A stretch of 30,103 bases of DNA from a virus. This document shows positions 7,244 to 26,734 of this stretch, in pieces. Under the pieces are notes generated by a model that did not search any database, had not been told where the DNA came from, and saw nothing but the letters and a program-made list of their open reading frames with translations. Numbering within the stretch: the stretch's first letter is position 1; each line of letters starts with the position of its first letter. Both the position numbers and the translations under genes were made by a program. The stretch covers positions 1 to 30,103 of IMG/VR virus record IMGVR_UViG_3300020190_002862. One strand, given 5' to 3'.

Positions 7244-8056
7244 ATGGAAAATTTAGAAAAATTAGACGTATCCGTAATCTTACCAATAGATTCAGCAAAA
7301 AACGTTATGTTCGATGAATTGTTTACAAGAGCAATTACATCAATCAACACTCAAATGAAACCAATTAATGAATTGGTTATTGTGCATACCGATGAAGAGT
7401 TACTAAAAAATACTTTAGACAACTTTGATTTTAGTGGTCTGACTGTTACGTTAGTGGAAAACAAAAATGAATTTGACTTTCCAACACAAGTAAATATTGG
7501 AGTTAAACATGCAAAAAGTAAGTGGGTATCAATTTTGGAGTTCGATGATGAATACTCAACAATTTGGTTTAAAAACTTTAGCCGTTTTCAAAAAGCGTAC
7601 CCTGAAGTTGATGCATTTTTACCTATTGTTATTGATACAGATGAAAAGGGCGTTTTTGTTGGTTTCACAAATGAAGCAACTTTTGCGGTAAGTATGAACT
7701 CTGAAATTGGATATTTGAATAACGACACTTTATTGAACTATCAAAATTTTCAATCGAGTGGTATGGTAATTAAAAAATCAACATTCGAAGATAATGGTGG
7801 GTTTAAATCAAGTATGAAACTAACTTTTGTTTATGAATACCTTTTGAGACTTACCTACAACTCTACTAAAATAATAACAATACCTCGGATTGGTTACAAA
7901 CATATGAATTTGAGACCAGGTTCTATTTTTTGGAATTACAAAAATGGTGATAAAAAAATTACTGATGATGAGGTTAGTTTTTGGATTGAGTTGGCGAAAA
8001 AAGAACATTTTTTTACTTCAGACAGAAACATAAAATTTGAACCACAAAGTGTATAA
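7244..8056 (+). CDS. GT-A fold glycosyltransferase (GT2-like)
   Basis: 270 residues. DVSVILPIDSAKN opens like the GT2 first strand, ELVIVHTDEE is the second nucleotide-binding strand, and WVSILEFDDEYSTIW carries the DxD-like metal site (Asp101-Asp102-Glu103). GMVIKKSTFEDNGGF and VYEYLLRLTYN match the acceptor side of GT2 enzymes. No membrane anchor is seen, so it is probably cytoplasmic. It starts 4 bases after the preceding glycosyltransferase, and its stop TAA overlaps the next ATG (TAATG at 8054-8058), suggesting the pair act together. Confidence 0.72.
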   Translation: MENLEKLDVSVILPIDSAKNVMFDELFTRAITSINTQMKPINELVIVHTDEELLKNTLDNFDFSGLTVTLVENKNEFDFPTQVNIGVKHAKSKWVSILEFDDEYSTIWFKNFSRFQKAYPEVDAFLPIVIDTDEKGVFVGFTNEATFAVSMNSEIGYLNNDTLLNYQNFQSSGMVIKKSTFEDNGGFKSSMKLTFVYEYLLRLTYNSTKIITIPRIGYKHMNLRPGSIFWNYKNGDKKITDDEVSFWIELAKKEHFFTSDRNIKFEPQSV

Positions 8057-8799
8057 TGTTTTTGGATGGCCAAAATCCCAAAGAATTAGACGAAAAGCAA
8101 AAGACAAAAAAAAAAGGTAAAAATTACTTTGATGTAAGAGAGGAAGAAGCGGTGAAAGATTATATCACCGCCAAAACTAAATCAGAAAAAGAAGAAATAT
8201 ATAATAAATTTCTTAAAGAGCCGTTAGATAAAATGATTGATTCAATTATCAGACGTTACAAACTATATCGTAAAGATATGGAATATTCAGATTTGCACAC
8301 CGACACTCATTCATTTTTAATGACAAAAGTCGATAAGTTCAAACCGGCAAAAAACAAAAAAGCATATTCATATTTTGGAACTATATGTAAAAATTACCTA
8401 ATGGGACAAATACAAAAAGACCAAAAGGAAATGAACAGAAAAGTATCTTATCAAGATATTTCTGCGACTTTGGAAAATAGACCCGACATGGTTTATTATT
8501 TGGAGTTTGAAAAAATTGACGCAGAAAAAATTATAGACATTTTTATGGTTGATTTAAAAAATCATGTCAACAATACAACAATGGTCGAGGAAGAGTTTAA
8601 GTTAGGAAATGCCCTTATTGAATTATTCGACAACCACGGAAACATTTTCATTGGAAACAACAATAACAAGTTTAATAAAAACATTGTTTTGTTATCTTTA
8701 AGAGAAATGACAAATTTATCAACAAAAGAAATTAGGATTTACTTAAAAAAATATAAAATTTTATATATAAACACAATTAATAGAATAAATAATAACTAA
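8056..8799 (+). CDS. Late-transcription sigma factor, T4 gp55-like
   Basis: 247 residues. A basic N-terminal tail is followed by helices at about 50-135 that read like sigma region 2: DKMIDSIIRRYKLYRKDMEY, then TKVDKFKPAKNKKAYSYFGT and YLMGQIQKDQKEMNRK, similar to the KAYAYF...A segment of T4 gp55. Regions 1.1 and 3.2 are not evident. The C-terminus LSTKEIRIYLKKYKILYINTI has a helix-turn-helix look and could be a reduced region 4 or a clamp/promoter contact. gp55-type sigmas direct host RNA polymerase to late promoters. The gene lies immediately before the structural genes, and TATTTATW elements occur upstream of many of them. Confidence 0.72.
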   Translation: MFLDGQNPKELDEKQKTKKKGKNYFDVREEEAVKDYITAKTKSEKEEIYNKFLKEPLDKMIDSIIRRYKLYRKDMEYSDLHTDTHSFLMTKVDKFKPAKNKKAYSYFGTICKNYLMGQIQKDQKEMNRKVSYQDISATLENRPDMVYYLEFEKIDAEKIIDIFMVDLKNHVNNTTMVEEEFKLGNALIELFDNHGNIFIGNNNNKFNKNIVLLSLREMTNLSTKEIRIYLKKYKILYINTINRINNN

Positions 8800-16041: not shown

Positions 16042-17868
16042 TTATCTCAATTCTCTTAAATCGAATGTTCTAACCCCGTCTACAGTAATTCTACCATAGA
16101 ACCTGTTGTTCACCATCTTCTTCGCATATCTGGTCATAATACCTTTGATTGGTGTGAAGTTGAATGGGTTGTACATTGTAGGTGTCAATTGTAGAGGAAC
16201 ATACGGTGCGTAAACGTACCCTGTGTCTAACAATGAAGAACCTTTGTGACCCAACAATACTGTATTTGGTGGGAAGTAAGGATCTCTATACACTTGGTAT
16301 CTTCCTGCTAATGTACCAACTCTTTCAATACCCATATTGTATTGGTCTTGCTCAGGAGAAGCGTTTGATACGTGGAAGTACTCAAGGTCATCAAAGATTG
16401 CAGAAATCTCAGAAGAAACAACAATCCAGTTAGCTCCACCTCTTAATGTAGACTTGTGGATTTGTGCTGAAATTTGGTTGATTGCTGTAATCAAAGTCTG
16501 ATTCCAATCTTTTTGTGTGTATTGAGTTAATGGATTTGCAGAAGTACCTCTTTTCCATCCGTTGTAATCCCATCTTAGGTTCCAAGCCGCACCTTTTCTA
16601 AGGTCTCTCAAGATTTCTCTATCAATTTCAGCCGCCACTTGCTCAGACAATAAAGCCGTAAGTTCAGCTTCAGCGTCGATGTTATGGAATGCTGAAACGT
16701 CTTGTGCCAATTCAGGTGACCATTGTGCTCTTAATTTTCTTTCAGTTACAGAAACAGTTACTGATTCTAAATCAAAAGAAACCTCACCAATTTTATCTTC
16801 AAATTCCAATTCTTCGTATACTCTAAAAGTACACGTGAACTCACTACCAGCAAGTGCAGTACCTGCAACACCTAATGTTAAACCTGAATAGCCGTCAAGT
16901 GATGCCGCTCCAATTGAACAAGGTTGTTGAAGGTCAACTTCTAGGTAAATATCACCAGTAGAGTCGCATATATCATCGTATGCGCCACCGTTTCCTGGGT
17001 ATGTACCACTGTAAAACGTTGTTGATTGTTGTGAACCATATTCTACAATCCCTTTACCGTATTTTTGAGTAACAACTCTGAATAGTAAATCACCAGTACC
17101 CATACCTGAGAATGCTCCAGTAGAAACTGCGTTTACTCTTAAATCAGAAAGGAATGACTCATTGTCCATTTCTTGTCCATCGGGACCGATTAATTTTCCA
17201 GCGCCTGCTGAAGAAAAACCTGACATAACGATTAAGGCTTTTCTAAAAACAGGACCACCATCGGCTCCCGTAGCAGCAACTGTACCACCAGTTAAGGTGT
17301 AAGCGGCTGGTACTAAGTTACCATTAGACCATGAAACTGTAGTTGCGCTCTTAGTTATACCAGAATATCTACCTTTTGAATAGTCAAAAAGACCTGCAGG
17401 GTCTAATCCTGGTTCAGTTCCTTCATAAAATCTATCATAAAGATTTTTACTTCCATCATTATAACCAGCATTTGCGTTTTGACCTGTATTATTTGGTGAA
17501 CCAATTGGTGCGTAATGCTCATTACCTGTATAAGATTGGATTTTAGGTACAAAGTAGAACAATTTACCAATTGGTAAGTTCATAGCCTGTACAGAAACTA
17601 AGTCATTAGCTAATAATTTAGAGAATACTCTTCTTACTATAGGAAATACTACAGTTTCGAAAGAACCTGAACTATCTGTTGATGCTGCTTCATTGATTAG
17701 GTTAGACGCTTGGTTTTCATATAACTGTGCCATGTTCTCTTTAACGTGTCCTCTAAGACCGTCTAGGAATCCTAATCTATCCCATTTGTTAATTGTATCT
17801 TCTTTGATAACTTTAAGGTGCTTAAGACCAATATTACCAACAAGACCTGATTCTAATAATGCTCCCAT
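16042..17868 (-). CDS. Major capsid protein, T4 gp23-like
   Basis: 608 residues. The N-terminal ~60 residues form a helical delta-type region (GALLESGLVGNIGLKHLKVI). NLINE60-AASTD then fits the prohead protease rule [L/I]-x-E, at nearly the same place as the T4 gp23 cut after residue 65. After it, FPIVRRVFSKLLANDLVSVQ and AMNLPIGKLFYF match the strongly conserved gp23 segment that ends QPMNSPTGQVFAL in T4. LLSEQVAAEIDREILRDLRK and the C-terminal ITVDGVRTFDLREL also fit. It forms the hexameric capsid shell. It follows the scaffold gene with a 35-base gap and no promoter-like motif, so the two are probably co-transcribed and end at the hairpin at 15994-16019. Codon use is GC-richer than in its neighbours, as expected for a highly expressed gene. 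Confidence 0.95.
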   Translation of the reverse strand: MGALLESGLVGNIGLKHLKVIKEDTINKWDRLGFLDGLRGHVKENMAQLYENQASNLINEAASTDSSGSFETVVFPIVRRVFSKLLANDLVSVQAMNLPIGKLFYFVPKIQSYTGNEHYAPIGSPNNTGQNANAGYNDGSKNLYDRFYEGTEPGLDPAGLFDYSKGRYSGITKSATTVSWSNGNLVPAAYTLTGGTVAATGADGGPVFRKALIVMSGFSSAGAGKLIGPDGQEMDNESFLSDLRVNAVSTGAFSGMGTGDLLFRVVTQKYGKGIVEYGSQQSTTFYSGTYPGNGGAYDDICDSTGDIYLEVDLQQPCSIGAASLDGYSGLTLGVAGTALAGSEFTCTFRVYEELEFEDKIGEVSFDLESVTVSVTERKLRAQWSPELAQDVSAFHNIDAEAELTALLSEQVAAEIDREILRDLRKGAAWNLRWDYNGWKRGTSANPLTQYTQKDWNQTLITAINQISAQIHKSTLRGGANWIVVSSEISAIFDDLEYFHVSNASPEQDQYNMGIERVGTLAGRYQVYRDPYFPPNTVLLGHKGSSLLDTGYVYAPYVPLQLTPTMYNPFNFTPIKGIMTRYAKKMVNNRFYGRITVDGVRTFDLRELR

Positions 17869-17903: not shown

Positions 17904-19316
17904 TTATTTTATTTTATTCATTAAATCCTTCATTCTCATAAATTGAGGATTTTCATAAGCTTTAGATTCAATCAAATTAGTCGCTGAACCATTACTTGGG
18001 GTTTTAATAACTTTTTTAGTAATTGATTCAGTCATCACTGAACTTGGTGTGTCACCTAATTCTTCTTTGATTGATTTATAAAGTGATTTTGATTCTTTCA
18101 AAGAGTCTACATTGTCGAATCTTCTAAGAATATTGATTTTTTCTTGTTTTGTTGTTGAGTGTTCGGTAAACAAACGTGTGGCGTATGCTAAGTTTGAATT
18201 AAAAATCGCAACTTCATTTAATTTATTTCTAAAAAAGTCTAAAGCTTTTCTATACTCTTCATTTTTTTCTTTCAGAGTTTCAAATTCATAAGACTCGTAA
18301 GTTAAATTTCTGTTTGGAGTAATCGCCTTTCTTAACCCTCTACCTTTTTTCGAACCATTTCCATAAGTTCTAGCGGCTTCAGCAGTTTCTGCATCATCAT
18401 CCTTTTCTTCACCCATCCAACCGTCTGAGATTTCATCCTTACCTGTTTCAGTGACTCCATATTTTAATTTTTTAGGGTAAATGTTAGATTTTAATTTACC
18501 AATTTTACCTTTTGCTTTAAAAGCCTCAACAACATTCTCGTATGATTCTTGGTCGATTTCATAAACTTGGTCATCCATTTCGTACACATCTTCGTCCATA
18601 TGACCCATACCTTCGTACACATCTTCGTCCATATGACCCATACCTTCGTACACATCTTCGTCCATATGACCCATACCTTCGTACACATCTTCGTCCATAT
18701 GACCCATACCTTCGTTATAGTCAAGTTCTGACATACCTCCCATCATTGAATCATCTTCAAAAACCAATTCGTATATTGTATTTTCTGCCATTGGTTCAGT
18801 TTGTTGTTCAACTGGTTGTTCAGTTGGTTGTGGTGTTGGTTCTTCTGCCGCAATACTAATCAGATATTCTGTATTAGCTTTACCATCTTTCAAATGAATA
18901 AAGTCACCATCTTTTTTGATAATAAATCCATCTTCGTCACCCATTGCCGCAAAAACTTTCATAAGTTCTGGCATTGGTGCTGATGTCATATCAAGTGGTG
19001 GTAATTCTTGTTCTGCTGGTGGCATTTCACCTTCACCGTTATCGGCACCTGCTTTAGGTTGTTGTGTTACAACTTCTTCTTCAGCAGACACTTCTTCTTC
19101 GCCTTCTTGTTCTGGTTCTTGTGGTTGTTCACCACCTTGTGCTTGTTCTTTCAAAGACCTTTTGGAACCTAAAATTGATTCCCTTACTAATTCGCCGATT
19201 TCTTCCTTCATTGTAGAAGCAAGTATTCCTTTTGCATTTTCACTAATCGCATCTTCGATAGACTTCATTTGTAAAAAAGCCTCTTCTACTAACGACTCTG
19301 ATTTTCTATTACTCAT
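17904..19316 (-). CDS. Prohead core scaffold, gp22-like, with internal tandem repeat
   Basis: 470 residues, highly acidic. The N-terminal helix SLVEEAFLQMKSIEDAI contains L-V-E, and is followed by a Gln/Glu/Pro-rich stretch (QGGEQPQEPEQEGEEE). Four identical copies of an 11-residue unit EGMGHMDEDVY follow at about 199-243. Charged helices (ETLKEKNEEYRKALDFFRNK) then resemble the gp22 helical core, and the C-terminus is basic (FMRMKDLMNKIK), suited to shell binding. Assignment rests on position (protease, this gene, capsid protein, as in T4 21-22-23), composition and helix pattern; sequence identity to gp22 is not obvious. Scaffold proteins shape the prohead and are degraded by the gp21 protease. 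Confidence 0.75.
   Translation of the reverse strand: MSNRKSESLVEEAFLQMKSIEDAISENAKGILASTMKEEIGELVRESILGSKRSLKEQAQGGEQPQEPEQEGEEEVSAEEEVVTQQPKAGADNGEGEMPPAEQELPPLDMTSAPMPELMKVFAAMGDEDGFIIKKDGDFIHLKDGKANTEYLISIAAEEPTPQPTEQPVEQQTEPMAENTIYELVFEDDSMMGGMSELDYNEGMGHMDEDVYEGMGHMDEDVYEGMGHMDEDVYEGMGHMDEDVYEMDDQVYEIDQESYENVVEAFKAKGKIGKLKSNIYPKKLKYGVTETGKDEISDGWMGEEKDDDAETAEAARTYGNGSKKGRGLRKAITPNRNLTYESYEFETLKEKNEEYRKALDFFRNKLNEVAIFNSNLAYATRLFTEHSTTKQEKINILRRFDNVDSLKESKSLYKSIKEELGDTPSSVMTESITKKVIKTPSNGSATNLIESKAYENPQFMRMKDLMNKIK
18581..18712 (-). repeat. Four tandem 33-base repeats in the scaffold gene
   Basis: The unit starting CGTACACATCTTCGTCCATA (plus strand) begins at 18581, 18614, 18647 and 18680 and appears identical each time. 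It encodes an 11-residue acidic unit in frame. Confidence 0.95.
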
Positions 19317-19669: not shown

Positions 19670-20380
19670 TTATTTACCTAAATAATTAGATAATCTTTTC
19701 ATTAAGTCAACAGTTTTATCTAATCCTCCCATATTTGAATTAATATTTTCAGATTCAGATAATTTTTCTTCGTAATTTGGTCTATCTTCTTTGTTTAAGT
19801 AAAGATATGCACCAGGTGTAGATGGTGAAGAAACTAAGTCAAAACAAATTAACTCAAAATCCTCTTGAACTTCATTTTCGTCTCCTTTTTTTACTAAAGA
19901 CCCGACTCCACGAGACGATACGCCCATTGTGACACCTTGTCTCATGAGGTTTGCAGCTACATCACCCTTTGATGTAACTATTCCTCTTTCGTGAAAACCT
20001 GGACTTGTTAATAATTTTATCTTACCCATTAAAATATTTCCTTCCCACCAAGTTTCAGTAATTAAATGTGATACCCTATCCAAATCAACTAAAGATGACT
20101 CAGGGTGATTCAATTCTGAAATAGACATTCCTCGTTTGATTACGTCTTGGTATTTTTCAGCCTCCCTTTTTAATATTTTTTCTGGATAAATTCTACCATT
20201 TCTATTTGGAACGCCGTGTTTTTGAAGTGTTGCGTAAAACACGAAAGGTTTTGAATGGTCGAGTTGACCATATGATTCTCTAATAATACTTTGGTTTCTT
20301 GGCTCGTTGGGATTGATGATTCCTGCATCCCACTCAACAAGAATTCCTTTACCTGTGTCGTTAGGTCCTAAAATTCTCAT
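19670..20380 (-). CDS. Prohead core protease, gp21-like
   Basis: 236 residues, close to the length of T4 gp21 (212). FVFYATLQKHGVPNRNGRIY (47-66) leads to SELNHPESS with His92 and to MGVSSRGVGSL with Ser155/156. With ICFDLVSSPSTPGA these are the His and Ser elements expected of a capsid maturation serine protease. In T4 this enzyme cuts scaffold, core and capsid proteins after [L/I]-x-E inside the prohead. Here it sits upstream of the scaffold and capsid genes as in T4, and the capsid protein has I-N-E at residue 60. A TATTTATA motif lies 13 bases upstream of the start. Confidence 0.88.
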   Translation of the reverse strand: MRILGPNDTGKGILVEWDAGIINPNEPRNQSIIRESYGQLDHSKPFVFYATLQKHGVPNRNGRIYPEKILKREAEKYQDVIKRGMSISELNHPESSLVDLDRVSHLITETWWEGNILMGKIKLLTSPGFHERGIVTSKGDVAANLMRQGVTMGVSSRGVGSLVKKGDENEVQEDFELICFDLVSSPSTPGAYLYLNKEDRPNYEEKLSESENINSNMGGLDKTVDLMKRLSNYLGK

Positions 20381-20401: not shown

Positions 20402-20851
20402 TTATATTTCTTGTGTTTCTGCCAATTTTGTTTTACTTAATGTAAAATAAATTGAATTTTTTAAATCATCTTTATAGATCGAAGATAAAATATTTTTAAT
20501 TTTTGACCTTAAAATAATTGATTTAAAATCGTAAATATCGTTGTGAATAAAAAGTGTTATTTCTAAATTTAAAAAACTTTTTTTGTTTTTTTGAAGTCCA
20601 CTTGTTCTTAAATCCAAATCTACAATATATTTTTTTTCGAAAATTTTGTGGTCAACAACTTCTAATAAGGTGTGTAAAATTTGTCTTTTTATGCTTCCTG
20701 TGATGGAAACCCAATTTGTGTAGTCTTCATTTGGTTTAACCCATGTTTGAAAAATTAGATAAATTGATTTTAAATTTTTAGAATCAACTGTTCCATATTG
20801 ACATTTTGCATCATCAAAAATGTTTAATTTTGATGTTTTTCCTTTCTTCAT
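20402..20851 (-). CDS. Unknown protein between bS21 and protease genes
   Basis: 149 residues, basic at the start (MKKGKTSKLNIF) with alternating strands and helices. Distinct segments are SIYLIFQTWVKPNEDYTNW and YIVDLDLRTSGLQKNKKSF. No catalytic motif, signal or membrane helix is visible. It is transcribed divergently from the bS21 gene across a 105-base gap and precedes the protease by 21 bases. Among T4 head genes a prohead core or neck role would fit the place, but the sequence gives no proof. Confidence 0.62.
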   Translation of the reverse strand: MKKGKTSKLNIFDDAKCQYGTVDSKNLKSIYLIFQTWVKPNEDYTNWVSITGSIKRQILHTLLEVVDHKIFEKKYIVDLDLRTSGLQKNKKSFLNLEITLFIHNDIYDFKSIILRSKIKNILSSIYKDDLKNSIYFTLSKTKLAETQEI

Positions 20852-20928
20852 TTTTCATATGTAAGATGTTTATTTTTATAAAATATAATAATTAGAATTA
20901 AATTTGTCAAAGCTCGAAAAAATTCATA

Positions 20929-20936
20929 TATTTATA
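20929..20936 (+). promoter_or_regulatory. TATTTATA promoter-like motif of the bS21 gene
   Basis: CATATATTTATATAAC lies 20 bases before the bS21 start, with the Shine-Dalgarno-like AAAAGGA in between. A TTTG at 20903-20906 could be a Bacteroidota-type -33 element, and TATATTTA partly fits the TAnnTTTG -7 element, so host sigma recognition is also possible. Confidence 0.45.
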
Positions 20937-20941
20937 TAACT

Positions 20942-20948
20942 AAAAGGA
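20942..20948 (+). promoter_or_regulatory. Strong Shine-Dalgarno sequence of the bS21 gene
   Basis: AAAAGGA ends 8 bases before ATG 20957, a textbook spacing. Most other genes in the window have only A-rich leaders, so this site stands out and supports the chosen start. Confidence 0.7.
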
Positions 20949-20956
20949 AAAAATTT

Positions 20957-21148
20957 ATGATTATTATTGAAGTGAAGAAAGGAAATATTGAACAGGCCTT
21001 AAAACAATATAAATTTAAAATTTATAAAACAAAACAATTAGAATTTTTAAGAGATAGACAAGAGTTTGAAAAAAAATCTATTAAAAATAGAAAACAACAA
21101 AAAAAAGCAATTTTTATTCAAAAAAAACAAAATCAATTCTTGTCTTGA
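20957..21148 (+). CDS. rpsU: Phage-encoded ribosomal protein bS21
   Basis: 63 residues, the usual bS21 length in Bacteroidota. MIIIEVKKGNIEQALKQYKF matches the N-terminal strand and first helix (the I-x-V-K-x-G-x-I-x-x-ALK-x-Y pattern). KTKQLEFLRDRQEFEKKSIK and the basic helix KNRKQQKKAIFIQKKQ match the rest. Phe53 aligns with the Tyr (about position 54) of flavobacterial bS21. bS21 sits on the 30S platform near the 16S 3' end and takes part in initiation. The gene is the only plus-strand gene within the head block, has its own promoter-like motif and the clearest Shine-Dalgarno here. Its 3' end overlaps the convergent membrane-protein gene by 16 bases. Confidence 0.9.
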   Translation: MIIIEVKKGNIEQALKQYKFKIYKTKQLEFLRDRQEFEKKSIKNRKQQKKAIFIQKKQNQFLS

Positions 21149-21384
21149 TTTTCTTCTGTCTTTTTTTTGTGAGTAAAAAAATCAACGGATGTAAGTCCTA
21201 ATGTTCCAAATGATAACAACCCAATAGTTTGTATAAGTATTACAGGTGCTACATATTTTCCGCAGCTAAATAGCGATACAAATAAAGCAACAATCAAAGA
21301 AATACTACACAAAAGACCTATAAATCTTTTGGATGAAATTTCACCATTAGCTCCTTCCATCATATTTTTAAAAAATTTTATCAT
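21133..21384 (-). CDS. Small two-helix membrane protein, possible holin
   Basis: 83 residues with two hydrophobic helices at about 21-40 (FIGLLCSISLIVALFVSLF) and 45-67, a short turn with Cys-Gly-Lys between them, and a charged C-terminal tail (THKKKTEENQDKN). The N-terminus ISSKRFIGLLC resembles phage two-helix proteins that I have seen called holins or left unnamed. Size, topology and tail fit a class II holin, but no endolysin is seen next to it, so this is a guess. Its ATG overlaps the stop of the upstream gene (ATGA at 21381-21384). Confidence 0.6.
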   Translation of the reverse strand: MIKFFKNMMEGANGEISSKRFIGLLCSISLIVALFVSLFSCGKYVAPVILIQTIGLLSFGTLGLTSVDFFTHKKKTEENQDKN

Positions 21385-22141: not shown

Positions 22142-24925
22142 TTACTTATTTAATAAGTTTTTTATTTTATCATCTATTTCATTCAAAGACACTCTACCTT
22201 TTGATAAGTCTAATGTGTTATCTTTATCAAAAAGTGTATTTTCTAAAATTAAATTCAAATCATTTTTGTTAAAACTTTCAGGGGTAACTCCCCCTCCAGC
22301 ATCAGGTGGTGGCGGCGGTGCCCCTCCCGCATCAGGTGGTGGTGGCGGTGCCCCTCCTCCTTCTTCTTCAGGTGCCCCTCCTCCCTCAGGAGCAGCTCCC
22401 CCTCCTGCGGCCGCTTCATCTTTTTTACCATATAGGGAATCAAGTGTATCAAACAATCCTGTTTTTGTGATTACTTCAGCGGTTTTACCTAACTCGGCTG
22501 ATACTGCCCTTTCAATTCTTTGTTGTTGTAAATCAAGTCTAATTTCATCATCAGAAAATCCTAAAATGTGTTTTTTGGCCCAAGATGCTGATACTGGTGC
22601 AACACTATCTTGAATTGGTGCAACGGCATCTTTGAATAGTGTAATTTTTTCTTTCCACAATTCAATTCCAAGAAGGTCTGATTGTTTTGATGGATTTGTA
22701 AGGCCAATAGTAAAGTTTGTTAATTCATCTTCAAACCCTAATAAAAATAAATGAATGATGGCAATTTTATTCATTTCTGCAATCATAGATTTTTGAATTC
22801 TATTAATTGTTCTTGCAAATCTAATATCAAGAAGTGACAAATTCTTACCATCACCTACAGCGTCCTCAAATCCAAGATAAGCCTTAGGAATACGAAGAGC
22901 CGTAACTAATTTCTTTTGGATATATTCAATATCTGCAATTTCCGCTAAGTTTGTACCACCTGGTAAAGTCTCTATTGGATTTGTGGTGGTGGTATCTCTT
23001 ACAGGGATAAAGTAATCTTGGTCTACTGCCATTTGATTGTATCTCATATCGACATTTCCTGTTTTTTGGTCAACAATTTGGTCTCTTTTAAATTTGTTTG
23101 CAACCCTTTGAACGTAACCATCAACATCTTTATCGTCCATGTTACCAACAAATACTTTAAAAACCCTTCTTTCAGGTGCTCTTGAAACGCGATATATTAA
23201 CATCGCATCTTCAGATAATAAAAGTTGTTTCCAAATACGACGAGCTTTTTCTAACATTGAAGTTCCGTATGGAAGTTTTCTATCATCTCCTAAAATTCTA
23301 AAATGAGCAATTTCCCATGTATTAAATTCCATGTTTTTTTCTTTCCATGTGAATTTTAACGCATCATTTTCAATCTCTGCTGAATACTTTTCAGGTTGAA
23401 ATTTCATACCCTTTTCTAAACGCTCAATTTGAATGTTTGGTAATTGCTGACAACCAACAACACCTCTTTCTGGGTCCAATTTTAAATAAACAAAATTATC
23501 ACCAAACTTACAAGTATTTCTAACCCACATTGGTAGATTGGTGTTAATATCCAACTTATTGTTAAATAAATCTGTTAATACCGATTTAATTCTTTTTGAT
23601 TCTGAATAAATTTTAAGAATATGTCCATCTTTATCGGGAGTTGTTGATTCTTCAGCATAAATGTCTAATGCTGCAGAAATTTCTGGCGTATTATGTGAAA
23701 AAATAGAATCTGTTGCAAAATTTTTATATCCTGGAACCGTTAAATCATAAACAGGAACAACACCGTAAGGTTCAATTGATAATATTTTGTGGTTTAGATT
23801 AATTACACTATTTTTTGCTCTTGCGGTTGAATATGGAGATTTTTTAATTCCATAAGCCATTAAAAAAGTATTCCAATCATTATATCCATTCGATACAATT
23901 TCTCTTTGTAATTTTCGATAAGATATATTTAATTCTTTAGACGTTCCTTTTAAAGTTTTAATTTTTCTTGCCGTTTCAATAATATTATCCCAACCAATTT
24001 TTATATATGTCGGATTTTTGTCACCACTACGTCTTCCACCCCAAACTAATTTTCCTTTCCTTTTTGCAACTTCTGACATTTTTTTTCTGTAATCAGGGTT
24101 AGACCACAATTTTTCGTTATTTATTTTTGCATGATATGCTCTGTGTTCTGACACTTTCATTACTTGTAAATTTTCAGGTAAGTTATTTTTACCATTAAAA
24201 TCTATATGATGAACTTCTTCGTCTTTATTTATTTTTTTATCATAAAACCATTCAGCGATTAAATTATGTTCGGAAATCCATCCATTGTGTCCTTCATCTG
24301 AATTACAGGTATAAACCCAATTATATTTTTGATTATTGAAGAATGATTTACGATAAAATGGCATCATTGAATCTCCAGGTTTTAAGTTCATAACTCTTTC
24401 AAATGAACCATCTCTTTTCATAAATTGGTGCTCCCAAGTTGCAATAATAAAACTTTCATCGTCAAAAGTAATCTTATAAGTCATTTCATCTCTAGTGTAG
24501 TGGGCATTTCTTGCAATTGCGGGAACCACTTTTTTAAGATTGTAATCGTAAGCATAAGTAATAAATTCATAATCTCTACCTTTTTCCGCTAACTCTTTAA
24601 TTGTTATAAACCCGTTTGGAGTTGCAATTTTAGTGTCACCGGCTAAACAATATTCCATCGATTCGTAATCATAATATGACGCCATTCTTGTTGGTTCATA
24701 ATATACTGCCTGTTGATATAGATTACTTTCAACTTTTTGCCATTGTTGACCAATATACATGGTCTGCTGAGCTTGTAATTTTTCTCTTTCGTAATCTTGT
24801 TTGTTTGGTGTTTTTAAAAGTTCTTTTTTATCAAACTTAAAAACAGGTGACTGCTGGTCAACCGTTGAATTTGGACCAAAAACTTTACCTAATCTTTGCC
24901 AAACTGTATATTTTTCTTCTGCCAT
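22142..24925 (-). CDS. Portal protein (gp20-like) interrupted by an intein
   Basis: 927 residues, of which 93-412 are an intein, leaving a portal of about 607. The N-terminal extein (MAEEKYTVWQRLGKVFG) runs to YESMEY92 and continues after splicing with TPEISAALDIYAEES, the conserved start of the gp20 core. Further portal segments are WVRNTCKFGDNFVYLKLD, YGTSMLEKARRIWKQLLLSE and GGTNLAEIADIEYIQKKLVT. Twelve portal subunits should form the DNA entry vertex and docking site for terminase and neck. The C-terminal ~90 residues are unusual: Gly/Ala/Pro-rich with a repeated PPPPPDAGG unit before a charged tail. It lies between terminase and protease as in T4. Confidence 0.9.
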   Translation of the reverse strand: MAEEKYTVWQRLGKVFGPNSTVDQQSPVFKFDKKELLKTPNKQDYEREKLQAQQTMYIGQQWQKVESNLYQQAVYYEPTRMASYYDYESMEYCLAGDTKIATPNGFITIKELAEKGRDYEFITYAYDYNLKKVVPAIARNAHYTRDEMTYKITFDDESFIIATWEHQFMKRDGSFERVMNLKPGDSMMPFYRKSFFNNQKYNWVYTCNSDEGHNGWISEHNLIAEWFYDKKINKDEEVHHIDFNGKNNLPENLQVMKVSEHRAYHAKINNEKLWSNPDYRKKMSEVAKRKGKLVWGGRRSGDKNPTYIKIGWDNIIETARKIKTLKGTSKELNISYRKLQREIVSNGYNDWNTFLMAYGIKKSPYSTARAKNSVINLNHKILSIEPYGVVPVYDLTVPGYKNFATDSIFSHNTPEISAALDIYAEESTTPDKDGHILKIYSESKRIKSVLTDLFNNKLDINTNLPMWVRNTCKFGDNFVYLKLDPERGVVGCQQLPNIQIERLEKGMKFQPEKYSAEIENDALKFTWKEKNMEFNTWEIAHFRILGDDRKLPYGTSMLEKARRIWKQLLLSEDAMLIYRVSRAPERRVFKVFVGNMDDKDVDGYVQRVANKFKRDQIVDQKTGNVDMRYNQMAVDQDYFIPVRDTTTTNPIETLPGGTNLAEIADIEYIQKKLVTALRIPKAYLGFEDAVGDGKNLSLLDIRFARTINRIQKSMIAEMNKIAIIHLFLLGFEDELTNFTIGLTNPSKQSDLLGIELWKEKITLFKDAVAPIQDSVAPVSASWAKKHILGFSDDEIRLDLQQQRIERAVSAELGKTAEVITKTGLFDTLDSLYGKKDEAAAGGGAAPEGGGAPEEEGGGAPPPPPDAGGAPPPPPDAGGGVTPESFNKNDLNLILENTLFDKDNTLDLSKGRVSLNEIDDKIKNLLNK
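22299..22358 (-). repeat. Two 30-base repeats coding the portal Pro/Gly tail
   Basis: Near-identical 30-base units encode a repeated 10-residue Pro/Asp/Ala/Gly unit. The flanking sequence is also GC-rich, in contrast to the AT-rich surroundings. Confidence 0.8.
23690..24649 (-). mobile_element. Intein with HNH homing endonuclease in the portal gene
   Basis: 320 residues. Cys93 starts block A (CLAGDTKIATPNGFITIKEL); TWEHQFM at 163-169 is block B (T-x-x-H). VYDLTVPGYKNFATDSIFSH (392-411) plus Asn412 form the C-terminal blocks F and G, and Thr413 is the +1 residue. Between the splicing blocks, EEVHHIDFNGKNNLPENLQV (237-256) with SEHRAYH is an HNH nuclease, followed by a helix-turn-helix-like segment (ARKIKTLKGTSKELNISYRK) that may bind DNA. 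All key splicing residues are present, so splicing and homing both look possible. Excision joins Tyr92 to Thr413 and restores a normal gp20 core. Confidence 0.93.
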
Positions 24926-24958: not shown

Positions 24959-26734
24959 TTAAACTCTTCTGTTACCAAACAACCAAGAATAATTTTCGTA
25001 ATCACTTTTTGTTGGTCCTGAATATGCTCTACTATTATACATATCAGTTTGTGCTGGTATTGAAGGATTAAAATTTTGTGAAGACTCTCTAAACATATTT
25101 TTATCAGTCGTCCAAGAGTCAATCATTGCTTTTGCCTGTTCTGTGGCCTTTTCGAGTTGAGCAAAAGATGACTCACCAACATAAATTGCCATAGCCATCG
25201 CCATAATCAAGTCATCGTGTTGCCCTTTTTGGTGGTCAGGTCTACCATTAACATAAACAAAAGTGTTAAGTTCATTAAATAACCTCTGAGACCTTACGGC
25301 AAACCCAAATCTCAAAGCCTCCTCAAACGCCTGAACAATAAGAACCCTTTTTGAATTAAAATTAATTCCTGGTATTTTTTCATTTTGTTTTGGGTCCCAT
25401 TTCCATTTATCTGCTGGGTTTATTCCATCTATATATAAATTTTTATATCCCAACTCTTGTAACTTTCGTGACGTTGCAACACCCATTCCACCTGTAATGT
25501 CTGTAACAATGAATGCATTATATATTGTTGCCCATTTATAGCTTATTTCTGCAACAATATCAGGTGGAACTTTTGCAATATACTCTAAAACTTGCTCTCT
25601 CTCGTCAAAATCAATAATAATAAATGTTGTAAAGTCTTCACTATCACCTCTCGAAACATCCATTCCCATTATGTATTTGTGGCCAGCAATCGGTTCTTTC
25701 CACTGCCACAATGCACCACCCAGAAATTTGTTTTCTGGTTCTTTAATAAAGTTTTCTTTTATTTTTTTCATTGTTTCACGAGGTATTACGTTATCTCCTG
25801 AACCTAAAAAATTACACTCCAACTCTTGTGATATTTTACGTTTGTCGAACTTTAATTTTTTTGACATCGATTCGAACCAAGAAGAATAAGCTTTATAACC
25901 TTGTTCTAATTTTTCTTTTATTTCCTCGAAATTCCTATCGGACACTTTTATTTTTGAGTAATCTAGTGTAATTTCATTATCTTTATAGTCACTTCTGTTT
26001 AACATATAATGAATTATATCATCACATTTAATTAACTTTAAATCTTTAGAATATCTTGGGTCACGAAACCAAAACATTTCAGTGATTTTGAAGTCATTCA
26101 TTCCTTTTACGGCCTGAGCATAAATTGAATAGTAAATTCGGTCAAACCCGTTTGGAGTAGAAATTACAATAACTTTACCACCTGTAGATAGAGACGCCAT
26201 ACAAGCAGACCAAAAATCTTCGTCGGCATCAATATAAGCAGCCTCATCAAAAATAAGAATTGTTGGGGTATATCCACGTAAAGCATCTTTTGATGTTGCA
26301 ACAGCCTTTACTTCACAACCATTACTTAATTTGAAATGTCTTGCCGCATTTTTTTCAACTGAAAATCCAACTCCTAACCAAGAAGGCCACTGTTCGACAA
26401 AAGCTCTAACTTTATTTGCCATTTCAACAGCGGTGTCAAGTTTGTTTGCAATAATTAGAATTTTTTCAGGTTTTGATTTTTTAGCAAAAACCAATCTTTT
26501 AGAAGCCCAAGCCGATGTAACGGTTGACACACCGGCCTGACGATATTTTAGTGCTATATTTTCTTCAGCAGAATCGTAGTCTTTTACAAGAGTAACTTGG
26601 TCGTTAAATAATTCTAATGGGACGTATTTAGATTGTGTGTTGTCGTAAGTTTGCAAATATGTTTTAAGTGCGTATGGAGTATCATTTACACACTTAGCAT
26701 ACTCTAATAATATTTGTTCTTTCGATAACAACAT
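24959..26734 (-). CDS. terL: Terminase large subunit, gp17-like
   Basis: 591 residues. The ATPase domain has a variant Walker A, KYRQAGVST (63-71), Walker B TILIFDEAAYID (158-169) and the coupling motif STPNGF (192-197). The C-terminal nuclease domain has GMDVSRGDSEDFTTF (Asp359), IVTDITGGMG (Asp412) and GQHDDLIMAMAMA (Asp507/508), the acidic RNase H-like triad. The canonical Walker A Lys is absent; an R-Q-x-G-x-ST form occurs in other terminases. The enzyme packages and cuts concatemeric DNA at the portal, which is the next gene downstream after 33 bases. The start lies 6 bases after the stop of the upstream gene. Confidence 0.95.
   Translation of the reverse strand: MLLSKEQILLEYAKCVNDTPYALKTYLQTYDNTQSKYVPLELFNDQVTLVKDYDSAEENIALKYRQAGVSTVTSAWASKRLVFAKKSKPEKILIIANKLDTAVEMANKVRAFVEQWPSWLGVGFSVEKNAARHFKLSNGCEVKAVATSKDALRGYTPTILIFDEAAYIDADEDFWSACMASLSTGGKVIVISTPNGFDRIYYSIYAQAVKGMNDFKITEMFWFRDPRYSKDLKLIKCDDIIHYMLNRSDYKDNEITLDYSKIKVSDRNFEEIKEKLEQGYKAYSSWFESMSKKLKFDKRKISQELECNFLGSGDNVIPRETMKKIKENFIKEPENKFLGGALWQWKEPIAGHKYIMGMDVSRGDSEDFTTFIIIDFDEREQVLEYIAKVPPDIVAEISYKWATIYNAFIVTDITGGMGVATSRKLQELGYKNLYIDGINPADKWKWDPKQNEKIPGINFNSKRVLIVQAFEEALRFGFAVRSQRLFNELNTFVYVNGRPDHQKGQHDDLIMAMAMAIYVGESSFAQLEKATEQAKAMIDSWTTDKNMFRESSQNFNPSIPAQTDMYNSRAYSGPTKSDYENYSWLFGNRRV

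Follow-up and report, generated by a model that had tools for sequence, protein, structure and literature searches.

The window analyzed here, a 30,103-base IMG/VR virus record of 30.6% G+C, contains a gene for the ribosomal protein bS21. In the reading we favor, with a probability of roughly 0.6, its product is a late-expressed substitute for host bS21 that would keep the anti-Shine-Dalgarno (anti-SD) sequence closed and would escape the feedback that governs host bS21. Among ribosomal proteins encoded by viruses, bS21 is the commonest. The part of the gene that deserves experiment is its missing extended SD, not the Phe that it encodes at the position of F. johnsoniae Tyr54.

The bS21 gene and its head-gene neighbors

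The gene occupies positions 20957..21148 on the + strand, starts with ATG, ends with TGA and encodes 63 amino acids. The protein matched Pfam Ribosomal_S21 (PF01165) with E 4.1e-9 and 36.5 bits, above the curated cut-off of 27, and PHROG 21469 'ribosomal protein S21' with E 2.9e-4. Its top PDB sequence matches were bS21 chains (9i5v, E 2.8e-10; 7jil, E 1.8e-7), 7jil being the F. johnsoniae ribosome as named by Chen et al. (PMC9723584). In the 7jil alignment the phage protein is one residue short near position 10, which places its Phe53 on F. johnsoniae Tyr54 (KAIFIQ and KAAYIQ, respectively); in F. johnsoniae numbering, it reads KTKQ at 25-28. A search of an annotated phage collection for close bS21 relatives returned a single weak match.

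bS21 lies antisense within a T4-like head block. On the - strand, strong Pfam matches identified the terminase large subunit (24959..26734), the portal protein gp20 (22142..24925), the prohead protease (Peptidase_S77; 19670..20380) and the major capsid protein gp23 (16042..17868), and a scaffold-like protein with tandem MGHMDEDVYEG repeats is encoded at 17904-19316 on the same strand. An earlier sequence-only reading had described a 63-residue bS21 within a T4-like head cluster, with Phe53 in register with Tyr54; the Pfam, PHROG, PDB and neighbor matches agree on the former, and the alignment to 7jil confirms the latter. An HNH-containing intein interrupts the gp20 gene in frame; this insert of roughly 960 bases is missing from relatives L004-L008. 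On one side, bS21 has a 16-base tail-to-tail overlap with the gene for an 83-amino-acid predicted protein with hydrophobic stretches (21133..21384, - strand), found in 35 of 80 close relatives. The divergent neighbor on the other side, N149 (20402..20851, - strand), is conserved in freshwater and marine relatives.

Origin and distribution of the Phe residue

For a residue census, viral relatives, 80 Flavobacterium genes and about 70 phylum-wide genes were aligned to one profile. The viral counts at the Tyr54 position exclude L311, which is host DNA. Among the 74 distinct viral bS21 proteins reaching this position, 71 have Tyr, 2 have His and 1 has Phe; an aromatic residue is retained in every one. 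Whether Phe is common in host bS21 was also checked, and the distinct Bacteroidota host sequences sampled that had an aligned residue gave 64 Tyr, 12 Arg, 1 His and 0 Phe, the 12 Arg cases coming from genomes whose bS21 is without the Bacteroidia-type C terminus.

In a phylogenetic tree, the viral bS21 proteins formed one clade (100/95) amid Bacteroidota bS21, apart from L311 and an uncertain entry, L332. The window protein paired with that of the sister phage L004 (100/90), which is 90% identical and has Tyr; the codons differ by one base, TTT in the window (21113..21115, + strand) and TAT in L004. Phe is therefore a recent single tip change, with the ring kept, in a clade that otherwise has Tyr and rarely His. 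An assembly error was ruled out by three assemblies, because L002 and L003, which belong to the same phage species as the window and whose DNA is 99.4-99.9% identical but not fully so, encode the same protein with Phe. As a single tip change inside a Tyr clade, Phe was likewise rejected as a mark of altered function. It is a harmless-looking variant on which the emphasis had been misplaced. As a natural Y54F variant, it could nonetheless help to show whether anti-SD sequestration needs more than the ring.

L311, a contig from the viral collection, was considered as an independent viral capture of bS21 and rejected, as it is bacterial chromosome. In it, a host-like bS21 gene with His at the Tyr54 position is followed by a XerC-like recombinase gene and a small ribosome-hibernation-like gene.

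Promoter-like motifs and a sigma-factor-like gene

A phage promoter-like motif, TATATTTATAT, lies ahead of bS21 at 20927..20937 on the + strand. In 55 of the 78 distinct viral bS21 genes, the heptamer TATTTAT ends 15-21 nt ahead of the ATG. Within the window, sense-oriented copies of TATTTAT or ATATTTAT stand a short distance ahead of bS21, the scaffold-like gene (17904), the protease gene (19670) and other genes. Across 220 kb from two relatives, ATATTTAT preceded genes 47 times in sense and 5 times in antisense orientation; for the 7-mer ATATTTA at 33 bS21-region loci the counts were 80 and 4, although these sequences are related and the counts not independent. We regard ATATTTAT as a promoter-like element and a candidate late promoter common to bS21 and structural genes. 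The host-type TTTG/TAnnTTTG promoter class was in no clear excess in the relatives.

The window also encodes a sigma-factor-like protein (8056..8799, + strand), a candidate late sigma on the basis of region 2 sequence and fold matches. Of 17 homologues, 15 matched Sigma70_r2 (best E 1.4e-3), the window protein itself scoring below the curated cut-off. Fold matches to its predicted structure, a model of moderate confidence (pLDDT 72.6), were mostly sigma factors, with region 2 aligning at a Z of about 9.5 and 2.7 A. Such a protein would fit a phage-specific late promoter. The gene is conserved in 43 viral loci.

The intergenic region contains a second promoter-like site, TTGACA-N17-TATATT (20885..20913, - strand), which faces N149. 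The form TTGACN-N17-TAnnnT is present in 71 of 78 distinct intergenic regions, and TTGACA-N17-TAnnnT seldom precedes other genes in these phages. N149 is strongly conserved, in at least 589 viral stretches, and is nearly always divergent from bS21; bS21 is also present in 73 of the 76 N149 loci with room for it and is absent from 3. The site was assigned to N149 rather than to bS21 because it is kept in the three loci without bS21. An AlphaFold model of N149 (pLDDT 88.7) gave no match at E 0.001, the best Z being 7.5 to unrelated proteins.

Shine-Dalgarno pairing of host and phage genes

SD pairing was calculated for the 25 bases before each start against the Flavobacterium 16S tail. All 51 distinct Flavobacterium rpsU leaders have an extended SD (-18.4 to -22.8 kcal/mol, median -19.8), as also described by McNutt et al. 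(2023), whereas the 84 distinct viral bS21 leaders have a median of -1.1 kcal/mol, the strongest reaching -12.2. Taking pairing below -13 kcal/mol as the criterion for the extended SD of autoregulated Bacteroidota rpsU, none was found before the window bS21 gene (-6.2) or any of the 84 viral genes. The viral bS21 genes have thus lost the extended SD, which is the host autoregulation signal. The loss is not uniform, because in the subclade of L070, L073 and L074 bS21 is preceded by AAAAGGAGG (-12.2 kcal/mol), unlike in all other viral relatives. No published report of this extended-SD contrast between host rpsU and phage bS21 was found in the open-access literature. Present in every Flavobacterium rpsU sampled and in no viral bS21 gene, the extended SD ties the phage gene to an experimentally known circuit.

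More widely, the 34 window genes have a median SD pairing of -1.75, compared with -2.9 at mock sites, and there was no SD excess over mock sites in the window or in 220 kb from two large relatives. Pairing is weakest in genes bearing the late-type motif (median 0.8 versus -1.5). Phage leaders are A-rich and SD-less, like those of the hosts, and the phage thus follows the SD-less mode of initiation of its host. A superoxide-dismutase-like gene in phage G205 (IMGVR_UViG_3300028553_001580, 68745-69464), identified by sequence motifs only, was considered as another phage gene with an extended SD (-17.1). This pairing was taken as chance because its AGGAGG closes the reading frame that comes before the gene, and the G201 homologue does not retain it.

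In a strong form of the sequence-only reading, Phe would loosen anti-SD sequestration and admit SD-bearing phage messages. In F. johnsoniae, Y54A does have such an effect: it raises the translation of strong-SD reporters only, as do removal of the C terminus and bS21 depletion (McNutt et al. 2023; PMC9976891). A weak SD-like hexamer, AAAGGA (20944..20949, + strand; -6.2 kcal/mol), also precedes the window gene and is absent from its sister L004 (-2.5). However, Phe keeps the ring, the Tyr of the sister and the His of two phages serve the same position, and SDs are absent from phage genes; we consider this loosening very unlikely. The proposal that Phe alters the hold on the anti-SD and directs initiation toward phage messages is unsupported: the change is private and of one codon, an aromatic is always kept at the position, and an SD-driven preference for phage messages was ruled out by the lack of SD excess. 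Altered anti-SD handling in favor of phage messages thus finds no support, given the retained aromatic residue and the lack of SDs in phage genes, most of all in late ones.

Family-specific substitutions

The near-fixed substitutions of viral bS21 cluster at positions 21-37 (K27 in 99%, Q28 in 97%, V/I23 in 97% and E37 in 89%). Relative to hosts, R21 is changed to F/S/Y/L, F23 to V/I, G27 to K, T28 to Q, R30 to acidic (E) or Q, and A37 to E, and D24 is altered; positions 40, 46, 51, 52, 54 and 56 are host-like. These many fixed differences from hosts count against the substitute that we favor. They would suit specialized ribosomes, as Chen et al. (2022) also infer (PMC9723584): the substituted N-terminal half (21-37) would reshape the path of the mRNA in favor of phage messages, and position 54 would serve as an anchor only. 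Both the clustering at 21-37 and the host-like residues elsewhere favor such ribosomes, but no sequence element marking phage messages was found, and the leaders are of the same type as in hosts. We judge specialization a serious but unlikely alternative.

Because the viral family departs from hosts at many fixed sites, phage bS21 is not a neutral copy. That it is leftover or neutral cargo with no ribosomal role could be argued from its variable C terminus and from the three loci that keep N149 without it. Freshwater and marine relatives, however, conserve its reading frame, its genomic place, the promoter-like site and the residues facing rRNA, and viral ribosomal protein genes in general are reported to be under purifying selection (PMC6375957). 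We consider neutral cargo very unlikely.

Proposed mechanism

In the favored mechanism, phage bS21 would be made late, together with the head proteins, and would occupy the bS21 site of host 30S subunits. Phe at the Tyr54 position should stack on A1534 in much the way that Tyr does, leaving the 16S 3′ tail sequestered, and the ribosome would go on translating SD-less messages, as host and phage genes both are. Synthesis would follow the phage promoter rather than host bS21 feedback; because its message needs no bS21-free ribosomes, phage bS21 should accumulate whatever the level of host bS21. That host bS21 would be replaced is made plausible by an analogous case, the bS21 of pelagiphage HTVC008M, which enters E. 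coli 70S ribosomes. Against the favored mechanism stand the near inactivity of those ribosomes in vitro (Mizuno et al. 2019; PMC6375957), a late promoter recognized solely from its sequence motif, and the uneven SD loss among viral relatives.

Loss of the extended SD may itself be adaptive: phage bS21 would fill bS21-free 30S subunits, host feedback would then silence rpsU, and the SD-less message from the late promoter would escape. We offer this tentatively, the odds being somewhat against it. If true, control of the bS21 pool would pass to the phage with no protease needed. Because the extended-SD contrast links the phage gene to a worked-out host circuit, reporters and strains already available for F. 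johnsoniae would allow the take-over idea to be tested.

Comparison with known systems

The window bS21, from a phage of Bacteroidota-type bacteria, is of an already known kind, that of Bacteroidetes jumbo phages from lakes. Chen et al. (2022) described such phages, with hosts predicted to be Bacteroidetes, as carrying a reverse-strand bS21 gene inside the head block, found phage bS21 transcripts alongside those of late genes in lake RNA, and proposed that phage bS21 replaces that of the host and favors phage transcripts (PMC9723584). Their clades a-e share with the window PhoH, sugar genes, an aromatic residue aligned with Tyr54, and an antisense bS21 between two hypothetical genes inside the terminase/portal/protease/capsid block. 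Of their 61 phage proteins, 54 had Tyr54 and the remaining 7 a different aromatic, and the full set of sequences analyzed included a single Phe54 (PMC9723584); the window bS21 has Phe, and that single case is possibly the window phage or a sister phage. Their main text is without discussion of phage-gene SDs, promoters or autoregulation (PMC9723584).

HTVC008M resembles the window phage as a large aquatic myovirus with a bS21 gene and differs in having an alphaproteobacterial host and a bS21 that is not of the Tyr54 type by origin. The closest counterpart with a worked-out circuit is host Flavobacterium rpsU, whose autoregulation in F. johnsoniae works through an extended SD that bS21-free ribosomes recognize (McNutt et al. 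2023; PMC9976891). The host and phage proteins belong to one family and share their C-terminal anti-SD contacts. An extended SD precedes the host gene, which encodes Tyr, G27 and T28, whereas the phage gene is without the extended SD and encodes Phe, K and Q at these positions.
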